A stretch of 47,530 bases of DNA from Bacteroidales bacterium (lineage in GTDB: Bacteria > Bacteroidota > Bacteroidia > Bacteroidales > Bacteroidaceae), in contig JAUMYJ010000006.1 in NCBI GenBank assembly GCA_030528715.1, positions 1 through 47,530 on the forward strand, given 5' to 3'. Shown in pieces: positions 7,814-39,477 of the stretch; the first letter of the stretch is position 1, and each line of letters starts with the position of its first letter. The position numbers and the translations under genes were made by a program. The notes below the pieces were generated by a model, which saw only the letters and a list, made by a program, of their open reading frames with translations, did not search any database and had not been told where the DNA came from.

Positions 7814-8437
7814 TTATCGTTTTGTAGCCAAGAAACGACGTGCCGATTCGGCCGCTACGAGTAGGCCACCTGCACTCATGATAATATCCTTAATAACCAA
7901 ACGACCAGCAGCCGAGAGGTAAGGAAAACCATGATGTGGCGTAGGCAGGTCTCCCCCTAGGTTAGGCACCCAACATTCAGGTGTAGTAATCAGAAACGAA
8001 AGCGTCACGATACTCATGCCAAAGGTAAGCAACCCACCCAGCATGCCCAAGCGTGGGTACCAAATGCCCAGTAACACGAGTGTACCAATCAAGCAAATAG
8101 CGGCTCCAAGGCCATAGGCAAACACATAAGTACCATTGCTCTCATGCCAAGCGATGTTCTTCTGCACCATTTTGCCCTCTGGGTTCTTGTGCAAGACGTA
8201 TTCTTTAACCATCTCACCCTTATCATTCGGAGCATACTTATCCGAATTGTTATAAAGGAAACTCATAAAAGGGCTATTGCTCACGAAGTGAGCGATGCCA
8301 TCGGCCTCGTATTGACACACTTTGAGACCACCAATCCACGCCATCACTATAAAAATGGCTACACGCATGTAGTTGTAAAAATTGCGCTCGAACTTAACGA
8401 GCAGCTCACTGCACAATGTAAAAAGGTTATTAATCAT
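7814..8437 (-). CDS. DUF417 (YkgB/RclC-like) inner-membrane protein
   Basis: This 207-aa protein belongs to the DUF417 family, which includes E. coli RclC (YkgB), a membrane protein needed for resistance to reactive chlorine. It carries the family signature AWIGGLKVCQYEADGIAHFVSNSPFMSF near the N-terminus and GYPYLSAAGR-like FPYLSAAGRLVIKD near the C-terminus, with four predicted membrane helices. A loop of about 35 polar residues after the first signature (NSDKYAPNDKGEMVKEY and onward) is longer than in RclC. I chose the ATG at 8437 (MINNLFTL) because the extra 25 residues to 8512 look like leader sequence. It is monocistronic, and a redox role here is inferred only from the family. Confidence 0.85.
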   Translation of the reverse strand: MINNLFTLCSELLVKFERNFYNYMRVAIFIVMAWIGGLKVCQYEADGIAHFVSNSPFMSFLYNNSDKYAPNDKGEMVKEYVLHKNPEGKMVQKNIAWHESNGTYVFAYGLGAAICLIGTLVLLGIWYPRLGMLGGLLTFGMSIVTLSFLITTPECWVPNLGGDLPTPHHGFPYLSAAGRLVIKDIIMSAGGLLVAAESARRFLATKR

Positions 8438-8509
8438 ACTTCGATTATAATAGTGACAAAAATAGCATGTCCGTAACCCTCTAATGCTACCACATGCCTT
8501 GTATAGGTG

Positions 8510-8517
8510 CAAAAATA
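8510..8517 (-). promoter_or_regulatory. Candidate promoter of the DUF417 gene
   Basis: The minus strand reads TATTTTTG (TAnnTTTG type) about 73 bp before the ATG. A second TATTTTTG lies at 8457-8464, closer to the gene. Neither has a clear upstream TTTG box, so which one is used cannot be decided. The rest of the gap 8518-8640 shows nothing recognisable. Confidence 0.35.
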
Positions 8518-8647
8518 GGTAATTTCACTCAGCACTGAACCTTAAAAAGGATAAAAAACACAACTAATCATTAATGCCACCCTCCAAGATGCCTCCTAGA
8601 AACTCATAAATAGGGAATTGCCTACCTATGTATGAAACTTTTCTTAC

Positions 8648-8655
8648 TATCTTTG
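8648..8655 (+). promoter_or_regulatory. Candidate promoter of the macroglobulin gene
   Basis: TATCTTTG fits TAnnTTTG. Transcription would start near 8662, which lies downstream of the first in-frame ATG at 8632. This supports the later start at 8773, giving a leader of about 110 nt. No good upstream TTTG box is seen at the standard distance. Confidence 0.4.
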
Positions 8656-8772
8656 CAAGTAGTTATGCGCTTTTTTGAGGCATACATTCACGCAGGTATT
8701 CTCATTTTAGAGTGGCGTCTATTGTATGTAAACGCTAAACGCATTTTTCAAGACAAAGAAGTATCTCTCCTC

Positions 8773-11700
8773 ATGACACAACAAGGCCTCTTTTCGTTTC
8801 CTACGACTCACCGCGTCAAATATCGCCATCTGTCCTTACTACTGATAGGCCTTGTGTCAATCAGTACACTCCACGCTCAGAGCTATCCTAAACTATGGCA
8901 GGCCGTGTACCAAGCCACACAAGACGACCTACCACGCAGTGCTATAAACAATATAGATAAAGTGGCCACCAAAGCTAGGAGTAAAGGAGATAAAGGGCAG
9001 GTGGTCAAAGCAGCTTTGGTGCGTGCTCAAATTACGCAAGGGCTATCAGCCGATAGCTTACCACAAACTCTCGCACGACTAGAAACTTTAATTAGCCAAA
9101 CAGACGATGTGGGTGTTCAAGCCATGATGCACCTAGCATTGGCAAAATGTCAAGAGGAAAATTATAGTCTTTTTAGCACGCAGCGCGACAGCCTTGTACG
9201 CATGCATCTCAACGAAGTAGCCACACGCCTACCATACCTCTTGCACCTACGCGCTAAAGACTATTTGCCAGCCGTAGAGCGTCAGCAAGATGCAACCATA
9301 AAAAAGCAGCCTGATCTATTTCATGGCGACCTACTCCATGCCGTAGCTGCCGAGTGGTTGGCGGCGCAGCCCATACGTCTCTACACAAGCGATAGCCTCT
9401 ATCGACACGTGATGAACATTTATACTGCAGTTGGTAACAATGATGCTGCTGCATACCTCCACTACCAATGGCTCGTGCAATACGCTCGCCCTCACAAAGC
9501 AAGTACCACATGGGCACACTGGGCAGAACATTACCGCAACACACAAGTGGCTCCACTCTTTTGGGTAGCTTGGGCAGAACAAAACAGCTGGCGTCACGCT
9601 CACGACAAGCTACAATGGGCTAAGACACACTACAAAAAGTCACCTTTTATCAGTGCTATCCACAACCATATAGCCCAAGCTACGGCACCAGCTATCGCAC
9701 TAGAACTTCCCGAAATCGTATCGACCACCGCTGGAGAAGCACGCTATACTGCACGCTGTCGAAACATCAAAAAGCTACGACTACGCCTCTACCATACCCC
9801 CTATACAACACTTAGCAAACGACCAGAGAAGATTGGTAAGAGCGAAACATTAGCAGCAGAGTGGACACTCGATGTGCCACGCGATAGTATGGCCGACTTT
9901 GTTGATGCACCACTGACCATTCAATGGCCTACACAGCCAGGCATCTATCGTGCTGTATTGATAGGCGACAAGCTCAACACACAGCACTTTGTACACATTA
10001 CCGACTTAGCGTTGCTGCGCATAAATACACCAAAACACACACGCTTTGTGAGCGTTAATAGGCAAAGTGGAGTAGCCATACCGCACACCACACTCACAGC
10101 CTACGACCGTGATGGCAAGCAGCTATGGCAAGATAGCACCAACAGCGAGGGTGAACTACTGACAGACGACACACACGAGTACCATAGCATCGCCATCAGC
10201 CGTGGTAACGACCAAGCTGCTCCCCTTATTTACATATACCATAAGCCACAAAGAGCTAGCTACGACGAAACCGCAAACAATAACTCACAGAGAGGAACTC
10301 TGAGCGAGCTACCATTGCAGCTACACCTCAACACCGACCGAAGCCTTTATCGCCCTGGGCAAAAGCTCTACGTGAGTGGTGTTGTATTTAGAAGTAACAA
10401 TGATGATGCTACGGCAGTGGCCAACATACGTGTACCCATCAGTATTCGTAATGCTCAAATGGCAGTGGTACATCGCGACACTATCACAAGCGATAAGTTT
10501 GGTACATTTGTCGCCACATTCACGCTCCCTTCTACGATACTTGCAGGAGCACTTTATATTGACACGCCCCATGGCACACACGAGTGCAAGGTAGAGGCAT
10601 TCAAAGCGCCCAGCTATGAGGTAAAACTAGATAGCATCGTAGGCTCACCAAAGGCAGGAGAACGTATCGTGTTACGTGGAGCAGCTCTTGGCTTCGATGG
10701 TGCCCCCATCGTTGGTGCTAAAATATCTATAAATCTTGCCACCCAACCTTGGCCTTGGTGGCGCAATAACAACAGCGAGCCTTATAGCACACAAGCTTAT
10801 GCTACAACCGATGCCGAGGGAGTCTTCACAAGCGAAGTAACCTTAGCTCCGAGCCTAGAAGACGACTACTTCATGCGCTATAAACTTACGGCCGAAGCTA
10901 GCAGCCCTACGGGCGAAGTACAACGTAGTGAATACGAGTTTAGCATAAACAGCCACCCTCGCCAGCTCTTTGCAGAATGGCCCAAACAAGTAAGACAAGA
11001 CAAACTCCCTAGCATCACTTACCACCTCTTGGGGAGCACAGGAAAACCATTACATAGCCAAGGAACGCTTGACGTCTATGCTCTGAATGATAGTACCAGC
11101 CCCATAGCGACACAAGCATTTACCGCAGCACACCCCTTTACACCCACACTTCTGAGCAAACTGCCACAAGGGCAATACCGCATCGTTGCTCACGTAGCTG
11201 CACAAAACGAACTTCCAGAGGCACGCCATGAGATAACATCTATCACCTTGTTTGACCCAATGGCCAAACAAGCAGCAGCACCACTTGTACTCTATCGTAG
11301 CGCACCCGATGAACAGCTACAAACAGCAGAGTTTATCATAGGCTCTAATCTTCCAGACGCTACCCTCTATTATACACTAGCAAGCTACGATGGTAAAGTA
11401 GAACGCCATGAGCGCATTGCTCTTAAAGGTGGCTATGCTCACCTACCACTCACTTATACCGAAGCTTTCGGAGAAAGTGCCACACTGCATGTTGCCTTTC
11501 ATGCACAGCAAGGCGATAGTAGTTATAACACCCTATCGTCTATCCGCGTAGCACGCCCATTTATAGACAAAACATTGCACTACCGCTGGGAACGTTTTGT
11601 AGACAAAGTGCGACCAAGCGACCAAGCACAATGGCAACTACGCTTAATGGATAGTGAGGGCAAGCCTGTAGAAGCTAATCTCATGTTGAGCGTATCTGAT

Positions 11701-14478
11701 GCTAGTGTCAATACACTCTTTGACAACTATCGTCCTTTTCAGCTCAATCGTTGGCGTCACTTTACATTCATCAGCGACACATGGGCACTAACAACTCCCA
11801 CACTGCATAGGTATACTGCTAGCCAGTACCCTACCCTATACCCAACAATAGCACCACTACGCTATACTCTACCACTACTGAGCTACGAGCTCTACCGACC
11901 TACTGCCACCCGTATGGTGCTGCGTGGCATGCCCACAGCATTAGCAGGTGCACTAGATAGCTATGCAGCTGAGGCCTCAATCATAGCTAAAGAACCGATG
12001 GGTGCTATCAAGCGTGCCAGCAAAGCGCTAACAGTTCATACGCCAATCAACATACCTAAACTACGCAGCGATTTTAGCCCCACAGCCTACTACAACGGCC
12101 AGCTACGTACAGACAAAGAAGGACGTGCAAGCATTAGCTTTACCCTACCACATAGTGCTACGACGTGGCAAGTGCGTGGCCTTGCCACAACAGCCGACAT
12201 GTGCTACGTTAGTTTCGACACAACACTCGTGGCACGTCCTGACATCGCCATTCGTAGCAACCTACCACGCTTCGTTTACGAGTCTGATAGCGTGAGCTTC
12301 ACAGCCACATTCCTAAACACAAAGACAATACCTCTTGACGTACGCAATACAATAGAGGTGCGCAATGCCGACAATGGTGTGGTACTAAACACACAGCACT
12401 GGAAAGGTTCGCTAGCCGCAAATGCACAAGCCGAAACTACCATCAGCTGTCGAGCACCACAAGGTGTATCGGCTCTTAAAGTACGGATATGGGCAGAGGG
12501 GAAGACGTATAGTGATGGCGAGGAATACACCATTCCCATCTATCAACAAAAGACTACACAAGTGGTACGTACTGCCCTACCATTAGACAAAGCAGGCATA
12601 CACACTCTACTACTAGATACACTAGAAGCCCCGATAAGTGGCACACTTACGAGCCGGCAGCTCACACTCACAAGCAATCCCGCATGGCTCGCCGTAATGT
12701 CGCTACCCACCATGGCCAATGCACGCTACCACGATGCCTATACACTAGCCAATACACTCTATGCAGCCACACTCACACAGCATATTATACAAACGCAGCC
12801 ACACGTAGCACGTGCCATCAATACGTGGCAAGAACTAGGCAATAAACTGCCACAAAACTTACAACACAAAGCACAACTTGCCGGCACAACGCTCAATGAC
12901 ACGCCTTGGCTGAGCGAAGCTAACGACGCCACGACTCAAATCAAACACTTGGCTACCTTCGCCAAGCCCAACATCTCACGTAATGCTTTCGACCGCGCCT
13001 TAGCCGAGCTCGCTCAACTGCAAGATGAATATGGTGGTTTTAGCTGGTGTCAAGGTATGCCTACCAGTCCCTATATCACTGCACAAGTGGCTTTACAGCT
13101 AGCACGCATGCAATACCTCACGCAACGCGATGTAGCCACCTACAACTACGACCAAGCCATGGCCTATCTCTACCGCACAGCCAGCCAATGGTATGCAGAC
13201 TACAAAGCCAAGCGCACTACCGATGTACCACAATGGCTTACAGACTACCTATATATCTATGCCACCACACGCCGCACATTTACAAAGAAGCAAGGCGAAC
13301 TGGCTAACCACATCATGGACATCATACAGGCCAAAGGCATAGCTATTGACTTACAACAAAAGGCTAAGGTGGCCACCATATTACACCACCTAGGGCACAA
13401 AGTAGCTGCCACCAAGCAGCTACACAGCCTACAACAACACCTCGTGCACAAGCCTGGCTATGGCACCTACTACGACGCGACAAATAGTAGCTACAATCGC
13501 AACAGCATTGGTACACAAGTAGCCGCACTAGACGCCCTACGCACCCTAGGTGAGCTAACACTCGAAAATCAAGAGCAAATGCGCCTATGGCTCGTGCAGC
13601 AACGTCGTGCACAGCAATGGCCAGATGCCGTAGCCACGGCCGAAGCAGTGCACACTTTACTGCAAGGACACGATGAGCTAGTACGTCCCAAGGTCAATAC
13701 CAAATCGGCCAAAGCAGCGCAAGAGGAGGCCAACAACAAACGCCAAAAAGACAATTCCGTACCCAGCGACAGTATAGCCAAGCCTGCCACACGCTTGCAA
13801 CTCGTAAACCTAGACGAGACTACTACACCTATTTACTATACCTTTGCAAAGGGCAAGCAAACGCTCGCCACCAATAGCGGTATACGCGGGAGTGAAACCA
13901 ACAGCTTAGGCTATATTGAGACACGCTTTAATGCCTCAGATATAGCCCTACAAGCCACTACACTCAAACTTCAAAAGACAAACAATCACTTTGCCTACGG
14001 CACCCTATACAGTAGCTATGCCTTACCCTTAGCTAGTACTACTGCACAAGCCACTGGCCTAGCCCTATCGCGACGCTTAGAATATTGGAATGGCCAAACG
14101 TGGCAAGCTACAGAGACCGATAGCACAAGCCTAGCCACTCTGCAACGCTTCAAGCCACTACGCCTACGTCAGGTGGTAACCATAGTGGCCGAGCAGACTT
14201 ATAGCTTTGTGCGTATTGACGCACCACGTAGTGCGGCAGCAGAACCTACACAACAGCTCTCGGGCTTTAGCTATCAAGGCGGAACACCCCACTACCGCAG
14301 TGTGGGCGATGCTGGCACGACCTATTTCGTAGAGCATTTGACTAAGGGCACACATCACTTTATTGAGGAGTGGTACATCAGCCGTACAGGAGAACTCCAA
14401 TGGCCTGCAACGCAAGCAACGTGCCTATTTGCCCCCGAGTTTTCAGGCCAAACAGCAGGTCAATGGCTACGCTTTTAA
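8773..14478 (+). CDS. Bacterial alpha-2-macroglobulin without thioester motif
   Basis: The 1901-aa protein is a bacterial alpha-2-macroglobulin, a family of large periplasmic or outer-membrane protease traps. The ATG at 8773 gives a clear signal peptide: hydrophobic LSLLLIGLVSIST, cleavage near HAQ|S, and no lipobox, so it is probably soluble. Macroglobulin MG domains are visible (LHLNTDRSLYRPGQKLYVSG is MG2). The central A2M domain follows (ATTWQVRGLATTADMCYVSFDTTLVARPDIAIRS in two parts), and then an alpha-toroid domain (QDEYGGFSWCQG). Where thioester-containing homologues have CxEQ, just after NPAWLAVMSLP (about residue 1318), this protein has YHDAYTLANT, so Cys, Glu and Gln are all absent. 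It cannot trap proteases covalently by a thioester. The gene stands alone; no pbpC is adjacent. Confidence 0.9.
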   Translation: MTQQGLFSFPTTHRVKYRHLSLLLIGLVSISTLHAQSYPKLWQAVYQATQDDLPRSAINNIDKVATKARSKGDKGQVVKAALVRAQITQGLSADSLPQTLARLETLISQTDDVGVQAMMHLALAKCQEENYSLFSTQRDSLVRMHLNEVATRLPYLLHLRAKDYLPAVERQQDATIKKQPDLFHGDLLHAVAAEWLAAQPIRLYTSDSLYRHVMNIYTAVGNNDAAAYLHYQWLVQYARPHKASTTWAHWAEHYRNTQVAPLFWVAWAEQNSWRHAHDKLQWAKTHYKKSPFISAIHNHIAQATAPAIALELPEIVSTTAGEARYTARCRNIKKLRLRLYHTPYTTLSKRPEKIGKSETLAAEWTLDVPRDSMADFVDAPLTIQWPTQPGIYRAVLIGDKLNTQHFVHITDLALLRINTPKHTRFVSVNRQSGVAIPHTTLTAYDRDGKQLWQDSTNSEGELLTDDTHEYHSIAISRGNDQAAPLIYIYHKPQRASYDETANNNSQRGTLSELPLQLHLNTDRSLYRPGQKLYVSGVVFRSNNDDATAVANIRVPISIRNAQMAVVHRDTITSDKFGTFVATFTLPSTILAGALYIDTPHGTHECKVEAFKAPSYEVKLDSIVGSPKAGERIVLRGAALGFDGAPIVGAKISINLATQPWPWWRNNNSEPYSTQAYATTDAEGVFTSEVTLAPSLEDDYFMRYKLTAEASSPTGEVQRSEYEFSINSHPRQLFAEWPKQVRQDKLPSITYHLLGSTGKPLHSQGTLDVYALNDSTSPIATQAFTAAHPFTPTLLSKLPQGQYRIVAHVAAQNELPEARHEITSITLFDPMAKQAAAPLVLYRSAPDEQLQTAEFIIGSNLPDATLYYTLASYDGKVERHERIALKGGYAHLPLTYTEAFGESATLHVAFHAQQGDSSYNTLSSIRVARPFIDKTLHYRWERFVDKVRPSDQAQWQLRLMDSEGKPVEANLMLSVSDASVNTLFDNYRPFQLNRWRHFTFISDTWALTTPTLHRYTASQYPTLYPTIAPLRYTLPLLSYELYRPTATRMVLRGMPTALAGALDSYAAEASIIAKEPMGAIKRASKALTVHTPINIPKLRSDFSPTAYYNGQLRTDKEGRASISFTLPHSATTWQVRGLATTADMCYVSFDTTLVARPDIAIRSNLPRFVYESDSVSFTATFLNTKTIPLDVRNTIEVRNADNGVVLNTQHWKGSLAANAQAETTISCRAPQGVSALKVRIWAEGKTYSDGEEYTIPIYQQKTTQVVRTALPLDKAGIHTLLLDTLEAPISGTLTSRQLTLTSNPAWLAVMSLPTMANARYHDAYTLANTLYAATLTQHIIQTQPHVARAINTWQELGNKLPQNLQHKAQLAGTTLNDTPWLSEANDATTQIKHLATFAKPNISRNAFDRALAELAQLQDEYGGFSWCQGMPTSPYITAQVALQLARMQYLTQRDVATYNYDQAMAYLYRTASQWYADYKAKRTTDVPQWLTDYLYIYATTRRTFTKKQGELANHIMDIIQAKGIAIDLQQKAKVATILHHLGHKVAATKQLHSLQQHLVHKPGYGTYYDATNSSYNRNSIGTQVAALDALRTLGELTLENQEQMRLWLVQQRRAQQWPDAVATAEAVHTLLQGHDELVRPKVNTKSAKAAQEEANNKRQKDNSVPSDSIAKPATRLQLVNLDETTTPIYYTFAKGKQTLATNSGIRGSETNSLGYIETRFNASDIALQATTLKLQKTNNHFAYGTLYSSYALPLASTTAQATGLALSRRLEYWNGQTWQATETDSTSLATLQRFKPLRLRQVVTIVAEQTYSFVRIDAPRSAAAEPTQQLSGFSYQGGTPHYRSVGDAGTTYFVEHLTKGTHHFIEEWYISRTGELQWPATQATCLFAPEFSGQTAGQWLRF

Positions 14479-28892: not shown

Positions 28893-30776
28893 TTAGGGCA
28901 CTACAACTTTACGACCATCTACGATATAAATACCCTTTGGCAGGGCAATCGTAATGGGCGTTGCAGTCACGATACCACTCCATAGCGCAGCGCCATCGGG
29001 GCGCACGAGTGTGACGGCTTTGGCCACAGGACTTGCAAGCGTTAGCTGGCCTAGGCTGGTGGTAGTTTGTAATGACGTAGCGCGTGGTGTGGCAATGTGC
29101 GTTATCGTAGGGTCGTAGGCATATTGCTTATCGAGAGCTGCTACACGCTTCTGAACCCAAGTGGCGATTTCGAGGGTTTCAGTCGGTATGTGGAATGTGC
29201 GCTTATCAGCTCCACTCCAACGAATACGCTCACGTTGGTCGGCACCACTATGCACAAAAAGCTCTGTATATCGCGCAAAGCGTGCCACCAAGCTATCGGG
29301 GTGGAAGTGTCCTTTGCGTAGCTCGGCATAGCGTGCAGCCAGGGCTTCGTTCCACCCAGGATAGGCACCTTCGCGTAAACGCTTATAGAGCCCATGCTCA
29401 CCATGTTCGTGCGTAATGAGGTATTGGGTATAGCTTTGCGTAGGGTCACCTGTGGTGTGGTTACGGCTATAATAATCGCGTCCCCACGTGCCGTCTAAGT
29501 CCCAGGGCGTGATGCCAAGCATTGGCTTTTTGCTAACGTCGTAGATGTGGTAAAACATGTTTTTACCATGGTTGTCGCTAGCTAGCATGAGCTCTACAAA
29601 GAGATAGTAATCGAGAGCCACGGGGAGGTCAAAGAGCTTAGCCGCCTGCTTACGGAAGGTTGCGGTATCGTTGCTAGCTACAGCCGACACAGCATTGTAG
29701 AGCGGTGCCCAGTCGATAGTTTCGCCATCAGCCACTTCGGGGTAAGCCATCTCAAAGTGTTCCCACGCATCACTCATGTTATCGTACTTCGCAGGAGGAA
29801 CACCTGGATAGTATTCGCTATCGAGACCATGCCCCATAAATGTGGCATAGCTCCAATGGTCTGCCTTGTAGAGCAAGCCACGCAGGGTAACGGCATCACC
29901 CGAGGTTGCAAACTTTTTGAGGCGTAGCTGCTTGCGATCGATTTTTTCAGTCATGCAGTAAAGTCCTTGGTAGCGACCATTGAGCACAATCTCTACAAAG
30001 AAACCACGCGTGCCATTGATAGCCTTAGGCTCAGCTGCAAAATGGGCGGGCTTGGCCGAGAAGTCGTTCCACAGGTCGGTAGAGACACGATTGCGCATGC
30101 GTGCCAAGTCTACGGCCATGGCATCAAGTATCCAGTCGTTGTCTTCTCGCAGACCGCCAAATGTACCATCTATTGATTTGCCAGCTTCGTCAATGAGTTT
30201 CACAGCAAAAGCCTTTTTGCTCATGGATTGTGCCGTAGCTCCACGATAGCGTAGTCTAGCCGTTAGCTTACCTTCGGTGCCGCGATGCTCAGCATCATTG
30301 ACGGTTATATTGCCCACTGTATATACTTTGCCATTGATATCGGGGGCAGTGTTGAGTGCTATAACGGGCATAAACGTGCCAACAAATGCTGCCGTAGCCA
30401 CAGTATCGCCCTTAGAGTTAATGAGGTGTAGCGTTTGGCGTACTCCCTTAGGATTATCAAACGAAGCTACGAAACTAGCACTATCACCGACATGGACGAC
30501 TTTCCCTCCTACTACGAGACGGTAGCCATTGGTGTCAGTATGGTTCATAACAGCCTTGGGTGTAGCGCGATAACGCTGACTAGTGGCAAGCGACAAGAGG
30601 TAGCGTTTGCCAGCTTCGTCATACACGGGAGTTACTCCACCAAAAGTAAGCGAGGGGATAATTTGTGTCAGTGTGTCGTTAGCTGGGGGAGCCACTTTTT
30701 GTGCAGTGGCATGTCCTCCACTTAGCACGAGGGCTAGACTAGTCACGACCAAGCGTGTGCGTAGAGCTGTAATCAT
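28893..30776 (-). CDS. Secreted CotH-type protein kinase homologue
   Basis: The 627-aa protein belongs to the CotH family; Bacillus CotH is an atypical kinase that phosphorylates spore-coat proteins. A signal peptide (LVVTSLALVLSGGHATAQ) sends it out of the cytoplasm. Kinase-fold marks are GRYQGLYCMTEKIDRKQLRLKK near residue 270, DNHGKNMFYHIYD near 400 and GITPWDLDGTWGRDY near 420. Before the kinase lie beta-rich repeats. The C-terminus, LPKGIYIVDGRKVVVP, resembles the sorting tail of type IX secretion substrates, though it is shorter than usual. No substrate gene is adjacent. It has its own promoter and terminator. Confidence 0.87.
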   Translation of the reverse strand: MITALRTRLVVTSLALVLSGGHATAQKVAPPANDTLTQIIPSLTFGGVTPVYDEAGKRYLLSLATSQRYRATPKAVMNHTDTNGYRLVVGGKVVHVGDSASFVASFDNPKGVRQTLHLINSKGDTVATAAFVGTFMPVIALNTAPDINGKVYTVGNITVNDAEHRGTEGKLTARLRYRGATAQSMSKKAFAVKLIDEAGKSIDGTFGGLREDNDWILDAMAVDLARMRNRVSTDLWNDFSAKPAHFAAEPKAINGTRGFFVEIVLNGRYQGLYCMTEKIDRKQLRLKKFATSGDAVTLRGLLYKADHWSYATFMGHGLDSEYYPGVPPAKYDNMSDAWEHFEMAYPEVADGETIDWAPLYNAVSAVASNDTATFRKQAAKLFDLPVALDYYLFVELMLASDNHGKNMFYHIYDVSKKPMLGITPWDLDGTWGRDYYSRNHTTGDPTQSYTQYLITHEHGEHGLYKRLREGAYPGWNEALAARYAELRKGHFHPDSLVARFARYTELFVHSGADQRERIRWSGADKRTFHIPTETLEIATWVQKRVAALDKQYAYDPTITHIATPRATSLQTTTSLGQLTLASPVAKAVTLVRPDGAALWSGIVTATPITIALPKGIYIVDGRKVVVP

Positions 30777-33304: not shown

Positions 33305-34024
33305 ATGAAATTTGCAATCATAGCCGCAGGCGAGGGCTCTCGTCTGAGTGCAGAGGGTGTGCCACAGCCCAAACCACTTGTACCATTATGTGGTGAGCCA
33401 ATGATAGCACGCCTTGTACGGATATTCCGTAGTTTGGGTGCAGAGGAAGTAGTTGTCATCGTCAATAGGTTGGTGCCTGAGACCGAAGCCTATATTCGCC
33501 AGATGCAAGCTGACACGGGTAAAGACGAAGCTCCAATTCGCCTAATTGTAGAGACAACACCTAGCTCAATGCATAGCTTTTATGCATTGAGCCAACATCT
33601 GCGTGGGGCAAAGTTTTGCCTTACGACAGTAGATACCATCTTTCGCGAAAACGACTTTGCCACCTACATTCACGCGTTTGAAAATAGCACAGCAGATGGC
33701 TTAATGGCTGTGACAGATCACATCGATGACGAAAAGCCATTATATGTAGCTACGAATGACGATCTACGCATTACCAATTTCCTAGACGAGCATACCCCTA
33801 GTGTGCGCTACATTTCAGGAGGTATCTATTGTCTTACGGACAAAGCCATTGAAGTGCTACACCGCTGCATGGCTGAGGGACAAAGTCGTATGCGAAATTT
33901 TCAGCGCGCCCTTATTACTGCTGGTCTACACATTGACGCCTATCCTTTCGATAGCAAAATCCTTGACGTAGACCATGCCGAAGACATTGTCAAAGCAGAG
34001 ACTTTTTTAAGCCAAACATCATAA
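33305..34024 (+). CDS. Nucleotidyltransferase of the sugar/polyol-phosphate type
   Basis: The 239-aa protein has the GT-A-like fold of NTP transferases that activate a phosphorylated sugar or alcohol. The nucleotide loop AAGEGSRLSAEGVPQPKPLV (residues 7-26), a metal-binding Asp in TTVDTIF (Asp110), and YISGGIYCL near 180 are visible. It lacks a hexapeptide-repeat domain. Followed at once by an ATP-grasp ligase, a CDP-alcohol phosphotransferase and a flippase-like protein, it most likely makes a CDP-linked headgroup donor, as inositol-phosphate cytidylyltransferase does. The substrate is unknown. It lies 74 bp after pdxA and 7 bp before the next gene. Confidence 0.82.
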   Translation: MKFAIIAAGEGSRLSAEGVPQPKPLVPLCGEPMIARLVRIFRSLGAEEVVVIVNRLVPETEAYIRQMQADTGKDEAPIRLIVETTPSSMHSFYALSQHLRGAKFCLTTVDTIFRENDFATYIHAFENSTADGLMAVTDHIDDEKPLYVATNDDLRITNFLDEHTPSVRYISGGIYCLTDKAIEVLHRCMAEGQSRMRNFQRALITAGLHIDAYPFDSKILDVDHAEDIVKAETFLSQTS

Positions 34025-34031
34025 GTAGTAT

Positions 34032-34913
34032 ATGCCCATTACCATAAAAAATCCTCTGCATTTTATCGGCCTAGGACGCTCCCCACAATACTCACCCAAC
34101 AGTGTCTCGCGCGACTCTGCCATCTTATTTGCAGTGGCCGAGCAGCTTTATCTTTCAGGTCATCACGTACAGATATTCCACGAAGACAATTGGCCTAAGC
34201 ACACCATGCCACATGCCCATATCTTCTCTATGGCGCGACTTCCTCAAACACTACAACGTCTAGATACTATAACAAACGTGCATAGCTGCCTAAACCTGCC
34301 ACAAGGTGTAAAATTGTGTAGCGCACGTGCTGAACTCATAGACAGATTGGCAGTCGAAGGCATACCACAGCCTGCATATCACATCATCGATCTTGACAAG
34401 CCTATACCATGGGCAGAGCTACCCACCTTCCCCCTATGGGCAAAACGTGCCGAAGGCTACTCACAGCAATCTACTGACGTTGTATTTGTACCCGAAGCCA
34501 ATGCACTCGAAGCAGCGTTGGAGCCCTTACGTCAAACAGGCTGCCAGCATGTAGTGCTAAGCCAGCATATTGAGGGCGACCTTATCAAATTCTATGGCGT
34601 AGCCAACACCCCCTTCTTTCATATAGCCTATGCTACACGTGAGGGGAGTTTTAGTAAGTTCGGTTGGGAAATGCAAAATGCCAAGCCACAGCACTATACC
34701 TTTGACGAGAGATTCATGAGCCAGCAATTGCGTGATTTTGGCGCACACCATGGTGTATATATGTTTGGCGGTGACGCCATCGTTACGGCCAATGGAGCGT
34801 GGTACGTCATTGATTTCAACGACTGGCCAAGCTATGCCGTATGTCGCGAAGCAGCTGCACAGGCCATCGCAACACTACTTTTAGACAATGCCTACCAAAC
34901 ACCACAGCTCTAA
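34032..34913 (+). CDS. ATP-grasp superfamily ligase
   Basis: I place this 293-aa protein in the ATP-grasp superfamily by its features rather than by a named relative. It has an N-terminal Rossmann-like region with a nucleotide-binding look (FIGLGRSPQYSPNS), a Lys in LWAKRAEG (Lys138), SQHIEGDLIKFYG (178-189) as the central lid, and paired acidic/amide residues that would hold Mg-ATP (Asp248, then DFNDWPSY with Asp261 and Asn263). Such enzymes join a carboxylate to an amine or thiol through an acylphosphate. It sits between a nucleotidyltransferase and a lipid phosphotransferase, so it may attach an amino acid or similar group to a headgroup. Confidence 0.72.
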   Translation: MPITIKNPLHFIGLGRSPQYSPNSVSRDSAILFAVAEQLYLSGHHVQIFHEDNWPKHTMPHAHIFSMARLPQTLQRLDTITNVHSCLNLPQGVKLCSARAELIDRLAVEGIPQPAYHIIDLDKPIPWAELPTFPLWAKRAEGYSQQSTDVVFVPEANALEAALEPLRQTGCQHVVLSQHIEGDLIKFYGVANTPFFHIAYATREGSFSKFGWEMQNAKPQHYTFDERFMSQQLRDFGAHHGVYMFGGDAIVTANGAWYVIDFNDWPSYAVCREAAAQAIATLLLDNAYQTPQL

Positions 34914-34935
34914 CTCTCTATACAAGCTAGCTTCT

Positions 34936-35895
34936 ATGCATTCAAAAACGAACCCAACACTTACGAGTACCTTCAAATCTACCGATACCGAAGAGTGGCT
35001 TGACATCGTATTCACACGCCCTATTGGTCTATGGTGGGCACGACTATTCAACCGCTTTGATATACACCCAAACACCGTTACTATCCTCTCCATGTTTATT
35101 GGAGCAGCAGCAGGAATATGCTTTTATTGGGCAGATTTTTGGCATAATCTAGCAGGTGTAGCACTCCTTATGTGGGCTAATTTTTATGACAGTGCCGATG
35201 GACAGCTTGCTCGCATGACAGGCAAAAAAACACGCTGGGGACGCATCTTAGATGGATTTGCTGGCGATATTTGGTTTATTACCATATACGTAGCACTTTG
35301 CCTACGCCTACACCACACACCTATGCCATGGAGCGACACGGCGTGGGGCTGGCGCATTTGGAGCATTGCCTCACTGGCAGGCTTTGTACTTCACAAACGC
35401 CAAGCGGCCTTAGCCGACTATTATCGCAACATTCACCTCTATTTTCTTAAAGGTAAGGAAGCTAGCGAGCTAGATACCTCAGCACAACAGCGCCAACATT
35501 TAGCAGAAACCCCACGTAAAGGCAACTTTTGGTGGCGTGCTTTTCTTTGGGGTTACGCGAACTACACCCAAGGACAAGAGGCACAAACCCCCATTTTTCA
35601 ACGTTTAATGCAGCACCTACGTGCATATCATGACGGCCAACTCCCCGAGCATCTACGCAGTACATTTCTAGCTCAGAGTCGTCCACTCATGCCACTAGCC
35701 AACATTCTTACGTTTAACTGCCGTGCCATTACCCTCTACATAAGCTGTCTAGCCAACGAGCCCTGGCTATACTTCATAGTTGAGATTACACTATTCACGG
35801 TACTATGGTGGGTCATGCGCTACCGCCATGAAACCCTTTGCGCGCGTACACTACACACACTGCAACACGGTACCCACGCTCCTACCAACAGCTAA
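34936..35895 (+). CDS. CDP-alcohol phosphatidyltransferase family protein
   Basis: The protein (319 aa) moves a phospho-alcohol between a CDP carrier and an acceptor within the membrane. The family motif is clear at residues 85-111: DSADGQLAR, eight residues, GRILDGFAGD. The last aspartate comes four residues after the previous one instead of three (D106 and D111), whereas the canonical spacing is D-x3-D. It has about six membrane helices and a cytoplasmic insert of about 60 polar residues (near 175-240) that ordinary family members lack. I chose the ATG at 34936 because upstream codons overlap the preceding gene. It starts 22 bp after the ATP-grasp gene and ends 3 bp before the next one. Confidence 0.85.
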   Translation: MHSKTNPTLTSTFKSTDTEEWLDIVFTRPIGLWWARLFNRFDIHPNTVTILSMFIGAAAGICFYWADFWHNLAGVALLMWANFYDSADGQLARMTGKKTRWGRILDGFAGDIWFITIYVALCLRLHHTPMPWSDTAWGWRIWSIASLAGFVLHKRQAALADYYRNIHLYFLKGKEASELDTSAQQRQHLAETPRKGNFWWRAFLWGYANYTQGQEAQTPIFQRLMQHLRAYHDGQLPEHLRSTFLAQSRPLMPLANILTFNCRAITLYISCLANEPWLYFIVEITLFTVLWWVMRYRHETLCARTLHTLQHGTHAPTNS

Positions 35896-35898
35896 GCT

Positions 35899-36915
35899 AT
35901 GTCTTCTAAAATACGCAATCTTTTTTTCGTTGTGGGCATCGTAGCCATTGTGGTGATGCTCTTTGGATTTGATATTTCGTATGCCGAAATTTGGGCACAA
36001 TTACAACAGTCTGGTTGGTGGTTTCTTGCTGCCGTAGCCATATGGTTACCCATCTATATGCTCAATACATTGGCCTGGCGTGTCATCATCAACGATGGCA
36101 AGCAGCAACCATTAGGTTATTGGCGCACATTAAAATATACCATTACAGGCTTCATCGTAAACTATATTACGCCTATGGGACTACTCGGTGGTGAGCCCTA
36201 TCGAATTATGGAGCTCAAGCCCTACGTAGGCACAGCCAAGGCCACTTCAAGTGTGTTGCTCTATGCCATGATGCACATTTTCTCACACTTCGTATTTTGG
36301 GCTTTTAGCATTCCACTCTATTTATTACTCTATTTCACTAGTATCACCCCCATATTGGCATTGATGTTGGCCGCTGGTGGTGGTTTCTGCGCCTTGGGTA
36401 TCTATGTTTTTATGAAAGGCTATCGCAATGGTTTTACAACACGTGCCTTGCGCCTACTCACACACTTACCCTTCATACGTACGTGGGCCACACGACTCGT
36501 CACAGAGCAAGCCGAAGAGTTAGCACGCATTGATAGTCAAATAGCCGAGCTACATGCCACACGCCGCAGCACGTTTTACCTCTCTGTAAGTTTGGAATTT
36601 TTAGCCCGTGTCGTAGGCTGTGCCGAGATATGGTTTATCATGCAGATGCTACCCGATGGAGCGCACGTAGGCTTTTTAGACTGCATACTTATCCAATCGT
36701 TCACTTCTCTATTTGCCAATTTATTCTTTTTCATGCCCTTAGGACTTGGTGCACGTGAGGGAGGCTTTGCTTTGGCAGTAGGTGGCTTGTCTATTGCGAG
36801 CGGTTTTGGCGTATTGACGGCCTTGGTGACACGCATTCGCGAGCTAATATGGATTTGCATCGGCTTGGTACTCATGCGTCTTTGGAACACCCCCCAAGCA
36901 CTTCGTAAGACGTAG
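35899..36915 (+). CDS. Flippase-like membrane protein (LPG synthase TM family)
   Basis: The 338-aa protein has about eight membrane helices and fits the UPF0104/AglD family, the flippase-like half of lysylphosphatidylglycerol synthase. Typical features are NTLAWRVIINDG, an inward patch PMGLLGGEPYRIMELKPY, and PLGLGAREGGFALA near the C-terminus. It has no catalytic aminoacyl-transfer domain. Placed 3 bp after the CDP-alcohol phosphotransferase and closing the transcript with a terminator, it is probably the step that moves or modifies the lipid made by that enzyme. Confidence 0.85.
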   Translation: MSSKIRNLFFVVGIVAIVVMLFGFDISYAEIWAQLQQSGWWFLAAVAIWLPIYMLNTLAWRVIINDGKQQPLGYWRTLKYTITGFIVNYITPMGLLGGEPYRIMELKPYVGTAKATSSVLLYAMMHIFSHFVFWAFSIPLYLLLYFTSITPILALMLAAGGGFCALGIYVFMKGYRNGFTTRALRLLTHLPFIRTWATRLVTEQAEELARIDSQIAELHATRRSTFYLSVSLEFLARVVGCAEIWFIMQMLPDGAHVGFLDCILIQSFTSLFANLFFFMPLGLGAREGGFALAVGGLSIASGFGVLTALVTRIRELIWICIGLVLMRLWNTPQALRKT

Positions 36916-36929
36916 CCCACTCACCTACG

Positions 36930-36980
36930 ATATGTGCCCAGTAGTTTGACTTTGTAAAGTTCGAGCTACTGGGCACATAT
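36930..36980 (+). terminator. Terminator of the rlmN-to-flippase transcript
   Basis: A perfect 15-bp stem (36930-36944 and 36966-36980) with an inner small hairpin (ACTTTGTAAAGT) is followed by CTTTTTATTT. It lies 15 bp after the last stop and may also mark the end of the convergent priA transcript. Confidence 0.85.
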
Positions 36981-36996
36981 CTTTTTATTTACGATG

Positions 36997-39477
36997 CTAC
37001 ACGGGGTCTACATCAAAGTGCACTACCACACCACGATAAGCAGTTTCGGCCTTGAGGGCAGTAGTAGCCTCTGAAATGAAGTTTTTCGCCTTACCAAGAG
37101 GTATGTTTGGCATGATTTTGACCATTAGCTTGCGAATATACAAGCTCTGCACACGTCCCACATAGGGTGTTTCGGGACCGAGCAGTTGCTCGCGAAAACC
37201 GGCCCGTAAATAAGCTGCCAACCATTCCGAAGCATTGGCCACCACAGCCTCATGCCGATGCCGCAAATACACATACACTAAGCGACAAAAGGGTGGGTAG
37301 AGGTATTGCTCACGTTCGGTCATTTGCTGTGCATACATCGCAGCATAATCAGCCGCAACAATTTGGCCTACGAGTGGTAAGTTAGGGTGACACGTTTGCA
37401 AAACTACAATACCTTGTGTTTGCCTGCGGCCAGCACGGCCAGCCACTTGCAACAGCATCTGAAATGCGCGTTCGTGTGCACGAAAATCAGGTTGTGCCAT
37501 AGCAGCATCTGCATTGAGCACCCCAACAGTACTTACATGGGCAAAATCAAGCCCCTTAGTAACCATCTGTGTACCAATGAGCAGATTAGTCTTCCTCGCT
37601 TGAAAGTCGGCAATGATGCGCTCGTAGGACGCTTGTTTACGCGTACTATCAAGGTCCAGTCGAGCAACACGTGCCTCAGGAAAATGCTCTGCCACCACTG
37701 CCTCGACCTTCTGTGTGCCAATGCCCATCTCACGCAGTTCGGTGTTTTCACACTGCGGACACTGCATAGGCTTGCTATGCTGCATGCCACAATAGTGACA
37801 CACGAGTTGTGACGTACGCAGATGATAGGTAAGCGACACGTCGCAGCGGTGGCAGCGTGGTGTCCACCCACACGACCGGCACTCTAACATCGGTGCATAG
37901 CCACGCCGATTGAGAAAGAGGATAGCCTGCTCGCCACGCATTAAGCTATCGCGAATAGCCGTAGATAGTTCTGGCGTAAAGACACCCTCCATGCGCCTTT
38001 GCTTACGTAGCTTGGCAATATCAGCTACATGGATTTTAGGCAAAGACACTTGGCCATGCCGCTCGTGCAGCTCCACAAGACCATATTTACCCTGCTGTGC
38101 ATGATGATAGGTTTCTACGGCAGGCGTGGCTGTACCTAGCAAGACTTTCGCACCCAAATATTTCGCTAATACGAGGGCTGTATCTCGAGCATGATAGCGC
38201 GGTGCTGGGTCTTGCTGTTTATAGCTTGTTTCGTGTTCTTCGTCTACGATGATGAGGCCTAAATGACGCTGTGGCAACCACAGAGCCGAGCGTGCGCCCA
38301 ATATCAAAGGGTAAGGTGTATGGCTGACTTGTTTGAGCCACAATTCGGTGCGCTCTGCGTCCGAAAAGCGTGAATGATAGATAGCCATACGCTGACCAAA
38401 GACACGCCCTAAACGCTCTGTAAGCTGTGTAGTCAGTGCGATTTCAGGCACGAGGTAGAGCACTTGTTGCCCTGCGGCTAGCGTACGCTCGATAAGCTCA
38501 ATATACACCTCAGTCTTACCACTTGATGTTACCCCGTGCAGCAAGCATACTTCTTTTTGAGCAAAACACGCTTGGATTGCTGCCAAGGCAGTTTGCTGCG
38601 CGGGATTAAGTTCACGCAACTTAAACGTACCAAAGTCACGATGCTTTACCCGACTTACGCGGTGCTGCACAAGCGTAAGTATACCACGCTTACGCAATTG
38701 TGTCAAAGCAGCTTCGGCACCACTTTCTTGTCCTTCGAGTAGCTGTGCTTTGGTTACAGGATTGAGCATCATGGCATTTTGCAAACGCATCGCAGTCGCT
38801 GCACCAGCCAAATCAAGGTAGTGTGTAAGCAAAGCTGCCTGCCGTGGCGAGCGGTGCAGCAATTCAAACACTGCATTGAGTTTAGCCTCGTCAAAATAGC
38901 CTTCGCTCAAAGCAATACGCGCCTCGGTCTTGGGCTTATATTGTCGCTGTTGCTGCTCGTGTATCTGCACTAAGCCTTTGGCCATCATGCGGCGCACGAT
39001 AGGTAGTAAATGATGGTGCTTGAGTGTCTTCTCTAAGGTTTTGATAGGGATAGGCTTATCAGCTGTCAAGGCTAGCCACAAACGCATTTCGAGCCCTTCG
39101 GCCACTTGCAGTTCATCGGCACCACTCGCGCGGCAAATGCTAGTCTCGCGCTCTACCTTTAAGCCTGCGGGCAGGGCGGTTTTCATTACTTCGCCCGTAG
39201 TACACATATAATATTGTGCTACCCATTGCCACAACTTTAACTGCTCTGGCAGTACGATAGGCACTTCATCTAGCACCTCATCAATGGGCTTCAAGCGCAA
39301 CACTTCTTCGGGTGTATCGGCATGCAGGCGCAACACGATACCTGTGTAATACTTGCGCACACCAACCTGCACTATAACGCGCATACCCCCTTGAACTACA
39401 TTCTGCCACTGCTCTGGCAAAGTGTAGGTATAGGCTTGAGGCACAGCCAATGGCACAATAACATCGGCATAAAGCAT
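36997..39477 (-). CDS. priA: Primosomal protein N' (replication restart helicase PriA)
   Basis: PriA recognises abandoned forks and D-loops and reloads the replicative helicase. The 826-aa protein has the N-terminal 3'-end-binding domain (LYADVIVPLAVPQAYTY), the helicase core with Walker A GVTSSGKTE and DEEH box VDEEHETSYKQQD, and a zinc region of eight cysteines in four CxxC pairs, beginning CRSCGWTPRCHRC and ending CPQC. Motif VI follows as VAGRAGRR. The frame is open to 39486, but that codon is TTG; the ATG at 39477 is preferred. pdxH lies 65 bp upstream and may be co-transcribed. Confidence 0.96.
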   Translation of the reverse strand: MLYADVIVPLAVPQAYTYTLPEQWQNVVQGGMRVIVQVGVRKYYTGIVLRLHADTPEEVLRLKPIDEVLDEVPIVLPEQLKLWQWVAQYYMCTTGEVMKTALPAGLKVERETSICRASGADELQVAEGLEMRLWLALTADKPIPIKTLEKTLKHHHLLPIVRRMMAKGLVQIHEQQQRQYKPKTEARIALSEGYFDEAKLNAVFELLHRSPRQAALLTHYLDLAGAATAMRLQNAMMLNPVTKAQLLEGQESGAEAALTQLRKRGILTLVQHRVSRVKHRDFGTFKLRELNPAQQTALAAIQACFAQKEVCLLHGVTSSGKTEVYIELIERTLAAGQQVLYLVPEIALTTQLTERLGRVFGQRMAIYHSRFSDAERTELWLKQVSHTPYPLILGARSALWLPQRHLGLIIVDEEHETSYKQQDPAPRYHARDTALVLAKYLGAKVLLGTATPAVETYHHAQQGKYGLVELHERHGQVSLPKIHVADIAKLRKQRRMEGVFTPELSTAIRDSLMRGEQAILFLNRRGYAPMLECRSCGWTPRCHRCDVSLTYHLRTSQLVCHYCGMQHSKPMQCPQCENTELREMGIGTQKVEAVVAEHFPEARVARLDLDSTRKQASYERIIADFQARKTNLLIGTQMVTKGLDFAHVSTVGVLNADAAMAQPDFRAHERAFQMLLQVAGRAGRRQTQGIVVLQTCHPNLPLVGQIVAADYAAMYAQQMTEREQYLYPPFCRLVYVYLRHRHEAVVANASEWLAAYLRAGFREQLLGPETPYVGRVQSLYIRKLMVKIMPNIPLGKAKNFISEATTALKAETAYRGVVVHFDVDPV

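Follow-up and report, generated by a model that had tools for sequence, protein, structure and literature searches.

On balance, we read four adjacent genes on a 47 530 nucleotide stretch of Bacteroidales DNA (NCBI GenBank assembly GCA_030528715.1, contig JAUMYJ010000006.1, positions 1 to 47 530; hereafter the window) as the central part of the ‘alternative’ route to inositol lipids in Bacteroidota, its second enzyme being a kinase like the inositol tris/tetrakisphosphate kinases (ITPKs) of plants and animals. The gene set is real and widely conserved, and a role in inositol-lipid synthesis has been proposed for it in print; the overlooked ATP-grasp protein is the finding. The genes encode a nucleotidyltransferase (NTP; 33305..34024; Pfam NTP_transf_3, 1.3e-15, and also NTP_transferase), putatively a CTP:inositol(-phosphate) cytidylyltransferase; the ATP-grasp protein (ATPg; 34032..34913), proposed from its predicted fold and motifs to be an ITPK-like inositol(-phosphate) kinase; a member of the CDP-alcohol phosphotransferase family (CDPOH; 34936..35895; CDP-OH_P_transf, PF01066, 2.3e-11), putatively a CDP-inositol:ceramide/diacylglycerol phosphoinositol transferase; and an LPG_synthase_TM/HpnL-like membrane protein (LPGTM; 35899..36915; PF03706, 3.6e-27), a putative lipid flippase or transporter. 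All four lie on the + strand with intergenic gaps of 7, 22 and 3 bp in the list of open reading frames. An alternative CDPOH start at 34888 overlaps ATPg, and we took 34936, which agrees with the alignment of homologues. The set ends at a hairpin followed by a T run (36929..36981, + strand): a simple terminator scan found none 3′ of 36915 on this strand, and the hairpin came from folding positions 36905–37000 (−40.9 kcal/mol, z −9.7, 0 of 200 shuffles equally stable; T run TTTTTATTT). A sequence-only reading of the window had described the same co-directional genes and gaps, the strong terminator and the families of genes 1, 3 and 4, all of which are borne out. It had also called the set an undescribed lipid-headgroup pathway of CDP-inositol logic; the logic is supported by a match to a published cluster, while ‘undescribed’ does not stand, as an NTP transferase and CDP-alcohol phosphotransferase (with HAD and the inositol-phosphate synthase MIPS) were published in 2022 as a putative cluster (PMC9246714). 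Nor are the four genes the whole set: the conserved unit includes a HAD-family hydrolase (HAD) and often MIPS, here on other contigs.

In one related locus (L251), from a genome that we take to be that of Phocaeicola (Bacteroides) vulgatus ATCC 8482, NTP, ATPg, CDPOH, LPGTM and HAD are consecutive, with MIPS 2.2 kb further. Heaver et al. (2022) tentatively assigned inositol-lipid synthesis in B. vulgatus and Prevotella to an NTP transferase, a CDP-alcohol phosphotransferase and a HAD protein whose genes lie close to MIPS, a pathway that is putative and unproven in their account (PMC9246714). Their P. vulgatus genes are BVU_RS13095 (NTP transferase), RS13105 (CDP-alcohol phosphotransferase) and RS13115 (HAD) (PMC9246714). 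The order in L251 matches these tags plus two unnamed slots, and by synteny ATPg is therefore RS13100 and LPGTM RS13110. The terms ‘ATP-grasp’ and ‘flippase’ are absent from the main text of that paper, which does place a ‘lysylphosphatidylglycerol synthase’ (a BT_1521 homologue) near both of its clusters (PMC9246714). As judged from sequence comparison, ATPg is a conserved gene, new here and unmentioned in the text of the published scheme, and the earlier view of it as the unusual element holds up.

The source genome has the gene content of the alternative cluster, with NTP and CDPOH in the window and HAD (G000:C34:29955-30650, 52% identical to the P. barnesiae HAD) and MIPS (G000:C32:21021-22259, over cut-off) elsewhere in an assembly that is 71% complete; the window thus holds four of the six parts of the usual unit. 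MIPS is on a different contig from the four genes, and the closeness to MIPS of the published cluster is not found here; Heaver et al. allow P. copri as an exception to that proximity (PMC9246714). In L180, a stretch of contig C32 of the source genome, MIPS comes first and a DUF5686/CarboxypepD_reg protein next (8983-13030 of L180); the two are likewise neighbours in L093, and a BT_1527 homologue of this kind is mentioned by Heaver et al. (PMC9246714).

ATPg matches were found in 36 of 61 searched genomes, the source genome included. The search for this neighbourhood in relatives, which the sequence-only reading had called for, gave a positive answer: in 34 loci fetched from the 35 relatives with a match (G021, a contig fragment, was left out), all four genes are present in 29 (in L063 the contig begins within NTP) and genes 1–3 keep the same order in 33. 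Three of the five incomplete loci stop at a contig end (L056, L062 and L064) and two have no local LPGTM (L051 and L053). A larger set comprised the best 80 of 584 confirmed stretches found by the ATPg motif, from Prevotella, Alloprevotella, Phocaeicola and their kin. With contig ends included, NTP was on the stretch in 74 of these 80, CDPOH in 75, HAD in 77, LPGTM in 33 and MIPS in 27, and NTP lay upstream of ATPg in 71 and CDPOH downstream in 69. Strong ATPg matches (E < 1e-60; six weaker matches in the order, E 9e-10 to 7e-4, were not counted) occurred in 37 genomes of the order, 36 of which also have a strong CDPOH match. They yielded 32 further loci (L188–L219; the window itself, G161, G243, G268 and G305 were excluded), with NTP in 31, CDPOH in 29, HAD in 28, MIPS in 24 and LPGTM in 12. 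Across 296 genomes of the phylum, strong ATPg matches were present in 10 outside the order (one in the same class and nine in another class or classes), and their 11 loci all contain NTP, CDPOH and HAD, with all six genes in nine. Taken together, these loci give NTP-ATPg-CDPOH-(LPGTM)-HAD-(MIPS) as the usual unit.

Members of this unit are repeatedly joined in single open frames. NTP and ATPg are fused in L087, L113, L143, L197, L200 and L252–L255, and NTP, ATPg and CDPOH together in L189; ATPg is fused to HAD in L094, CDPOH to HAD in L080, L084 and L117, and LPGTM to HAD in L127, L142, L143 and L207. These frames link ATPg with the activating enzyme and, in one case, with HAD. An ATPg-HAD-MIPS block stands in seven of the 80 loci, with NTP-CDPOH kilobases downstream or off the fetched stretch.

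The association with MIPS makes inositol very probably the substrate of the pathway. Of the 295 genomes sampled from the order, 37 have strong ATPg, 49 MIPS and 34 both (Fisher p 2.3e-29), and in 28 of the 34 the two genes are no more than 8 kb apart. At family level (n = 199; all matches with E ≤ 0.001, including G651, G711 and G712, matched only in pieces), the figures were 129, 141 and 115 (p 2.6e-14); both p values overstate the significance because related genomes were counted as independent. Among the 15 order genomes with MIPS and without strong ATPg, a weak CDPOH-profile match (a short transferase) was read by eye within about 3.1 kb of MIPS in 10, as expected for a pathway like that of B. 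thetaiotaomicron. No BT_1523-type short CDP-alcohol transferase was found in the 71% complete source assembly, where the PF01066 matches were CDPOH and a PssA-like protein only.

The ATPg protein of the window matched no Pfam family up to E 0.1. Its AlphaFold2 model (pLDDT 94.2, pTM 0.90) has ATP-grasp folds as top structural matches, in agreement with the earlier label ‘ATP-grasp-like’, and the fold, the ATP-binding Lys and the metal-binding D-x-N of the superfamily are all present. In the structural ranking, RimK/LysX/D-Ala ligases came out level with ITPK kinases. The best sequence match in the profile search was a RimK-domain protein, with the ITPK structures 7pup, 1z2n, 2odt, 13lz, 2q7d and 2qb5 also among the matches (E 0.003–0.05). 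Over 65 ATPg members, the ITPK family PF05770 was the most frequent Pfam match (8 of 65, others ≤4), at a best E of 0.072, which is not significant. Residues K186, Y188, D261, N263, P266 and S267 are conserved in 29 of 29 aligned homologues; the D-x-N-x-x-P-S motif aligns with ITPKs, and K-x-Y aligns with the KFY of AtITPK4, but within a stretch scoring negative by itself. To our knowledge, RimK/LysX ATP-grasp ligases lack a K-x-Y substrate motif. ATPg is probably a kinase rather than a ligase and, as far as its motifs and modelled fold can tell, most likely an ITPK-like inositol(-phosphate) kinase. In ZmITPK1, Lys198 and Tyr200 contact a substrate phosphate (PMC7614388), and the plant enzyme AtITPK1 slowly phosphorylates inositol 3-phosphate (Ins3P), which is what MIPS makes (PMC7618535). 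A review of ITPKs mentions eukaryotes and Lokiarchaeota (PMC8024741); an ITPK-like inositol kinase would, if our assignment is true, be placed in bacteria.

In two genomes of one family (f26), ATPg has S at D261 (G309) or GGE for GGD (G165), with the sites otherwise conserved, and neither genome has HAD at E 1e-15. It is as if kinase and HAD had been lost together, a weak hint from two related cases. Their loci, L196 (G309) and L188 (G165), are hybrid clusters in which BT-like PAP2, PIPS-like and GtrA genes stand beside the altered ATPg. L196 also carries PgpA, the family of the phosphatidylinositol phosphate (PIP) phosphatase BT_1525, giving G309 a PgpA-family gene.

The other components fit inositol-lipid synthesis to different degrees. 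The NTP fold is common to many sugar-phosphate nucleotidyltransferases. CDPOH scores 44.7 bits against PF01066 (cut-off 22), its best NCBIfam family is archaetidylinositol phosphate synthase (under cut-off), and its PDB profile matches include AF2299 (1e-14), IPCT-DIPPS, phosphatidylinositol (phosphate) synthases and cholinephosphotransferase. LPGTM matches HpnL (TIGR03476) at 1.8e-26, under cut-off, and the HAD partner is over cut-off for PF00702.

In the pathway we propose, MIPS, encoded elsewhere in the genome, would supply Ins3P, and ATPg would add a phosphate to inositol or inositol phosphate on the hydroxyl destined for lipid linkage. NTP would activate this phosphate with CTP to give CDP-inositol or CDP-inositol-phosphate, from which CDPOH would pass phosphoinositol on to ceramide or diacylglycerol. 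HAD, also encoded elsewhere, would strip the spare phosphate and LPGTM would carry the lipid across the membrane, a transport role to which we give even odds. The end product would be phosphoinositol dihydroceramide and/or phosphatidylinositol (PI), and the order of the kinase and phosphatase steps is tentative, at less than even odds. MIPS makes the 3-phosphate, and ordinary PI is 1-linked; ATPg suggests a possible solution to this stereochemical mismatch. Direct transfer from CDP-inositol(-phosphate) to ceramide would need no PI-dihydroceramide synthase, so that HAD could instead take off the phosphate that ATPg puts on. Both P. vulgatus and P. veroralis are reported to contain PI-ceramide, with no further group mentioned for P. 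vulgatus in the accounts of these lipids (PMC9246714; PMC10056535). In P. vulgatus, ceramide-PI made up 1% of the sphingolipids and diacyl-PI was undetected, unlike in B. thetaiotaomicron and B. ovatus (PMC10056535), which fits direct transfer to ceramide.

A fuller version of the scheme is speculative, and we think it somewhat doubtful as a whole: an ITPK-type kinase in Bacteroidota would turn the MIPS product into inositol bisphosphate and thence, via CDP-inositol-phosphate and ceramide, into a transient PIP-ceramide trimmed by HAD to PI-ceramide. The inositol would be 1-linked as in eukaryotes, gut bacteria would have their own phosphoinositides and soluble inositol polyphosphates, and outside the order, where an aminotransferase and an enzyme resembling inositol dehydrogenase join it, the same module would make amino-inositol lipids. 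In B. thetaiotaomicron, loss of inositol lipids affects the capsule, resistance to antimicrobial peptides and fitness in the gut (PMC9246714). The second route to such lipids is unproven, and on present evidence an enzyme may be missing from its published scheme; with ATPg named, loss of one gene should be enough to decide on the pathway.

Several observations weigh against the proposed pathway. At family level, 14 genomes have ATPg without a MIPS match and 26 have MIPS without ATPg, and G165 retains ATPg with neither NTP nor HAD. The canonical signature D-x2-D-G-x2-A-R-x8-G-x3-D-x3-D is present in 0 of 29 CDPOH proteins, with D3-x4-D4 instead of D3-x3-D4 in 27. The D-x-D of HAD motif I is likewise not seen; the partner has D-Y/F-G-G-T in 31 of 32 cases, the second Asp being absent. 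A dehalogenase with just the first Asp of this motif works, though it is not a phosphatase (PMC7614388).

The kinase could act at another point. HAD or another phosphatase might first free inositol from Ins3P, with ATPg serving as an inositol 1-kinase that gives NTP inositol 1-phosphate, and no bisphosphate or lipid-phosphate intermediate would arise. Such a kinase would admit imported inositol, in keeping with the absence of a MIPS match from 14 of 129 ATPg-bearing family genomes, four of them listed as 99% complete, and the ATPg-HAD-MIPS blocks and the ATPg-HAD frame of L094 would suit it. Yet a HAD serving only the MIPS product should be dispensable without MIPS, and a HAD match is present in 14 of 14 MIPS-less genomes (split over two contigs in G653), which speaks against such a restricted role; its occurrence in one frame with CDPOH or LPGTM, both of them membrane proteins, suggests a part at the lipid stage. 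We think this salvage or position switch unlikely. The sequence-only reading had instead favoured ATP-dependent ligation, by which ATPg would join an acid (e.g. an amino acid) to the headgroup. The fold leaves kinase and ligase tied, the best sequence match is a RimK-domain protein, and the class-III aminotransferase and inositol-dehydrogenase-like enzyme of L240 and L248 could supply an amine for ligation. It is weakened by the ITPK-type K-x-Y and D-x-N-x-x-P-S motifs, and by the accounts of phosphoinositol-ceramide in P. vulgatus, which mention no further group; PI-ceramide is reported from P. vulgatus, P. veroralis and P. copri, ATPg having been checked only in the presumed P. vulgatus. The Bacteroidales core genes are, moreover, mostly directly adjacent and leave little room between them for such enzymes (the flanks were not systematically scanned), and we regard a ligase of this kind as improbable.

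The published scheme might also be complete as it stands, with NTP making CDP-inositol from Ins3P, CDPOH making PI-diacylglycerol, HAD making PI-ceramide and ATPg accessory or regulatory. It has the standing of print, and direct use of the MIPS product is possible, as stated for hyperthermophiles (PMC9246714). An accessory role sits poorly with the strong CDPOH match in 36 of 37 strong-ATPg genomes, the presence of NTP in 31 of 32 order loci, the fusion of ATPg to NTP in several loci and the lack of detected diacyl-PI in P. vulgatus, and we give this account little credence. That the source genome makes a headgroup other than inositol seems very improbable to us: the generic NTP fold and the location of MIPS and HAD on other contigs of an incomplete assembly would allow it, but the order-wide linkage to MIPS and the 52% identical HAD in the same genome argue for inositol.

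Our preferred pathway, with ATPg as kinase, can be set against known systems. It shares NTP, CDP-alcohol phosphotransferase, HAD, MIPS and the ‘lysylphosphatidylglycerol synthase’ neighbour with the alternative cluster as published, and in L251, L093 and L112 the order of the genes agrees too; it differs in having HAD and MIPS on other contigs here, and we doubt the published role of HAD as PI-dihydroceramide synthase (PMC9246714). With the ITPKs (PF05770; AtITPK1, AtITPK4 and human ITPK1), ATPg has in common the ATP-grasp fold, K-x-Y and D-x-N-x-x-P-S/G, whereas it is bacterial, lacks significant Pfam similarity and is known here from sequence and model. The N-terminal domain of AtITPK4 is HAD-like (PMC7614388) and comparable with the ATPg-HAD frame of L094. 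The PIP pathway of B. thetaiotaomicron (BT_1522/1523/1525/1526) is likewise fed by MIPS and ends in removal of a phosphate (PIP to PI), as proposed here, but uses its own canonical short CDP-alcohol transferase, a PgpA phosphatase and a PAP2-type synthase. Archaeal IPCT-DIPPS and the inositol-1-phosphate cytidylyltransferase of Thermotoga maritima share the CDP-inositol logic, the nucleotidyltransferase fold and R/K/D residues, and differ in their product, a di-inositol phosphate solute or an ether lipid; we know of no ATP-grasp partner in those systems.

The shifted CDPOH signature also occurs in the paralogues of L182–L186, not in that of L187, and in L240 and L248 the shifted position is occupied by N. 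In L186 (G150, 8141-11701), a CDPOH paralogue adjoins a short-chain dehydrogenase, LPGTM and an acyltransferase; NTP is absent, and the group may belong to another lipid pathway. L240 and L248, both from another class, add to the cluster MlaD, a class-III aminotransferase and a GFO/IDH/MocA oxidoreductase nearest to inositol 2-dehydrogenase (under cut-off), and L248 also has MlaE and an ABC ATPase; an amino-inositol lipid is a possible product. Gene spacing in L243 and L247 resembles theirs (family scans covered L248 and, in part, L240), and ATPg is tandemly duplicated in L240 and L243–L245. L240 and L241 belong to one genome (G365), which thus has two clusters, one a compact six-gene form and the other with the extra enzymes and tandem ATPg.

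The four genes of the window have rlmN and pdxA as upstream neighbours on the same strand and priA and pdxH downstream on the opposite strand (all by Pfam), where a further open reading frame, presumably recA-like, also lies. A CotH-kinase-domain protein is encoded upstream on the − strand (28893-30776). Upstream rlmN and pdxA, as in Bacteroidales, also precede the cluster in L140, a metagenome-assembled genome record titled Roseburia sp. that is probably misnamed or contaminated.

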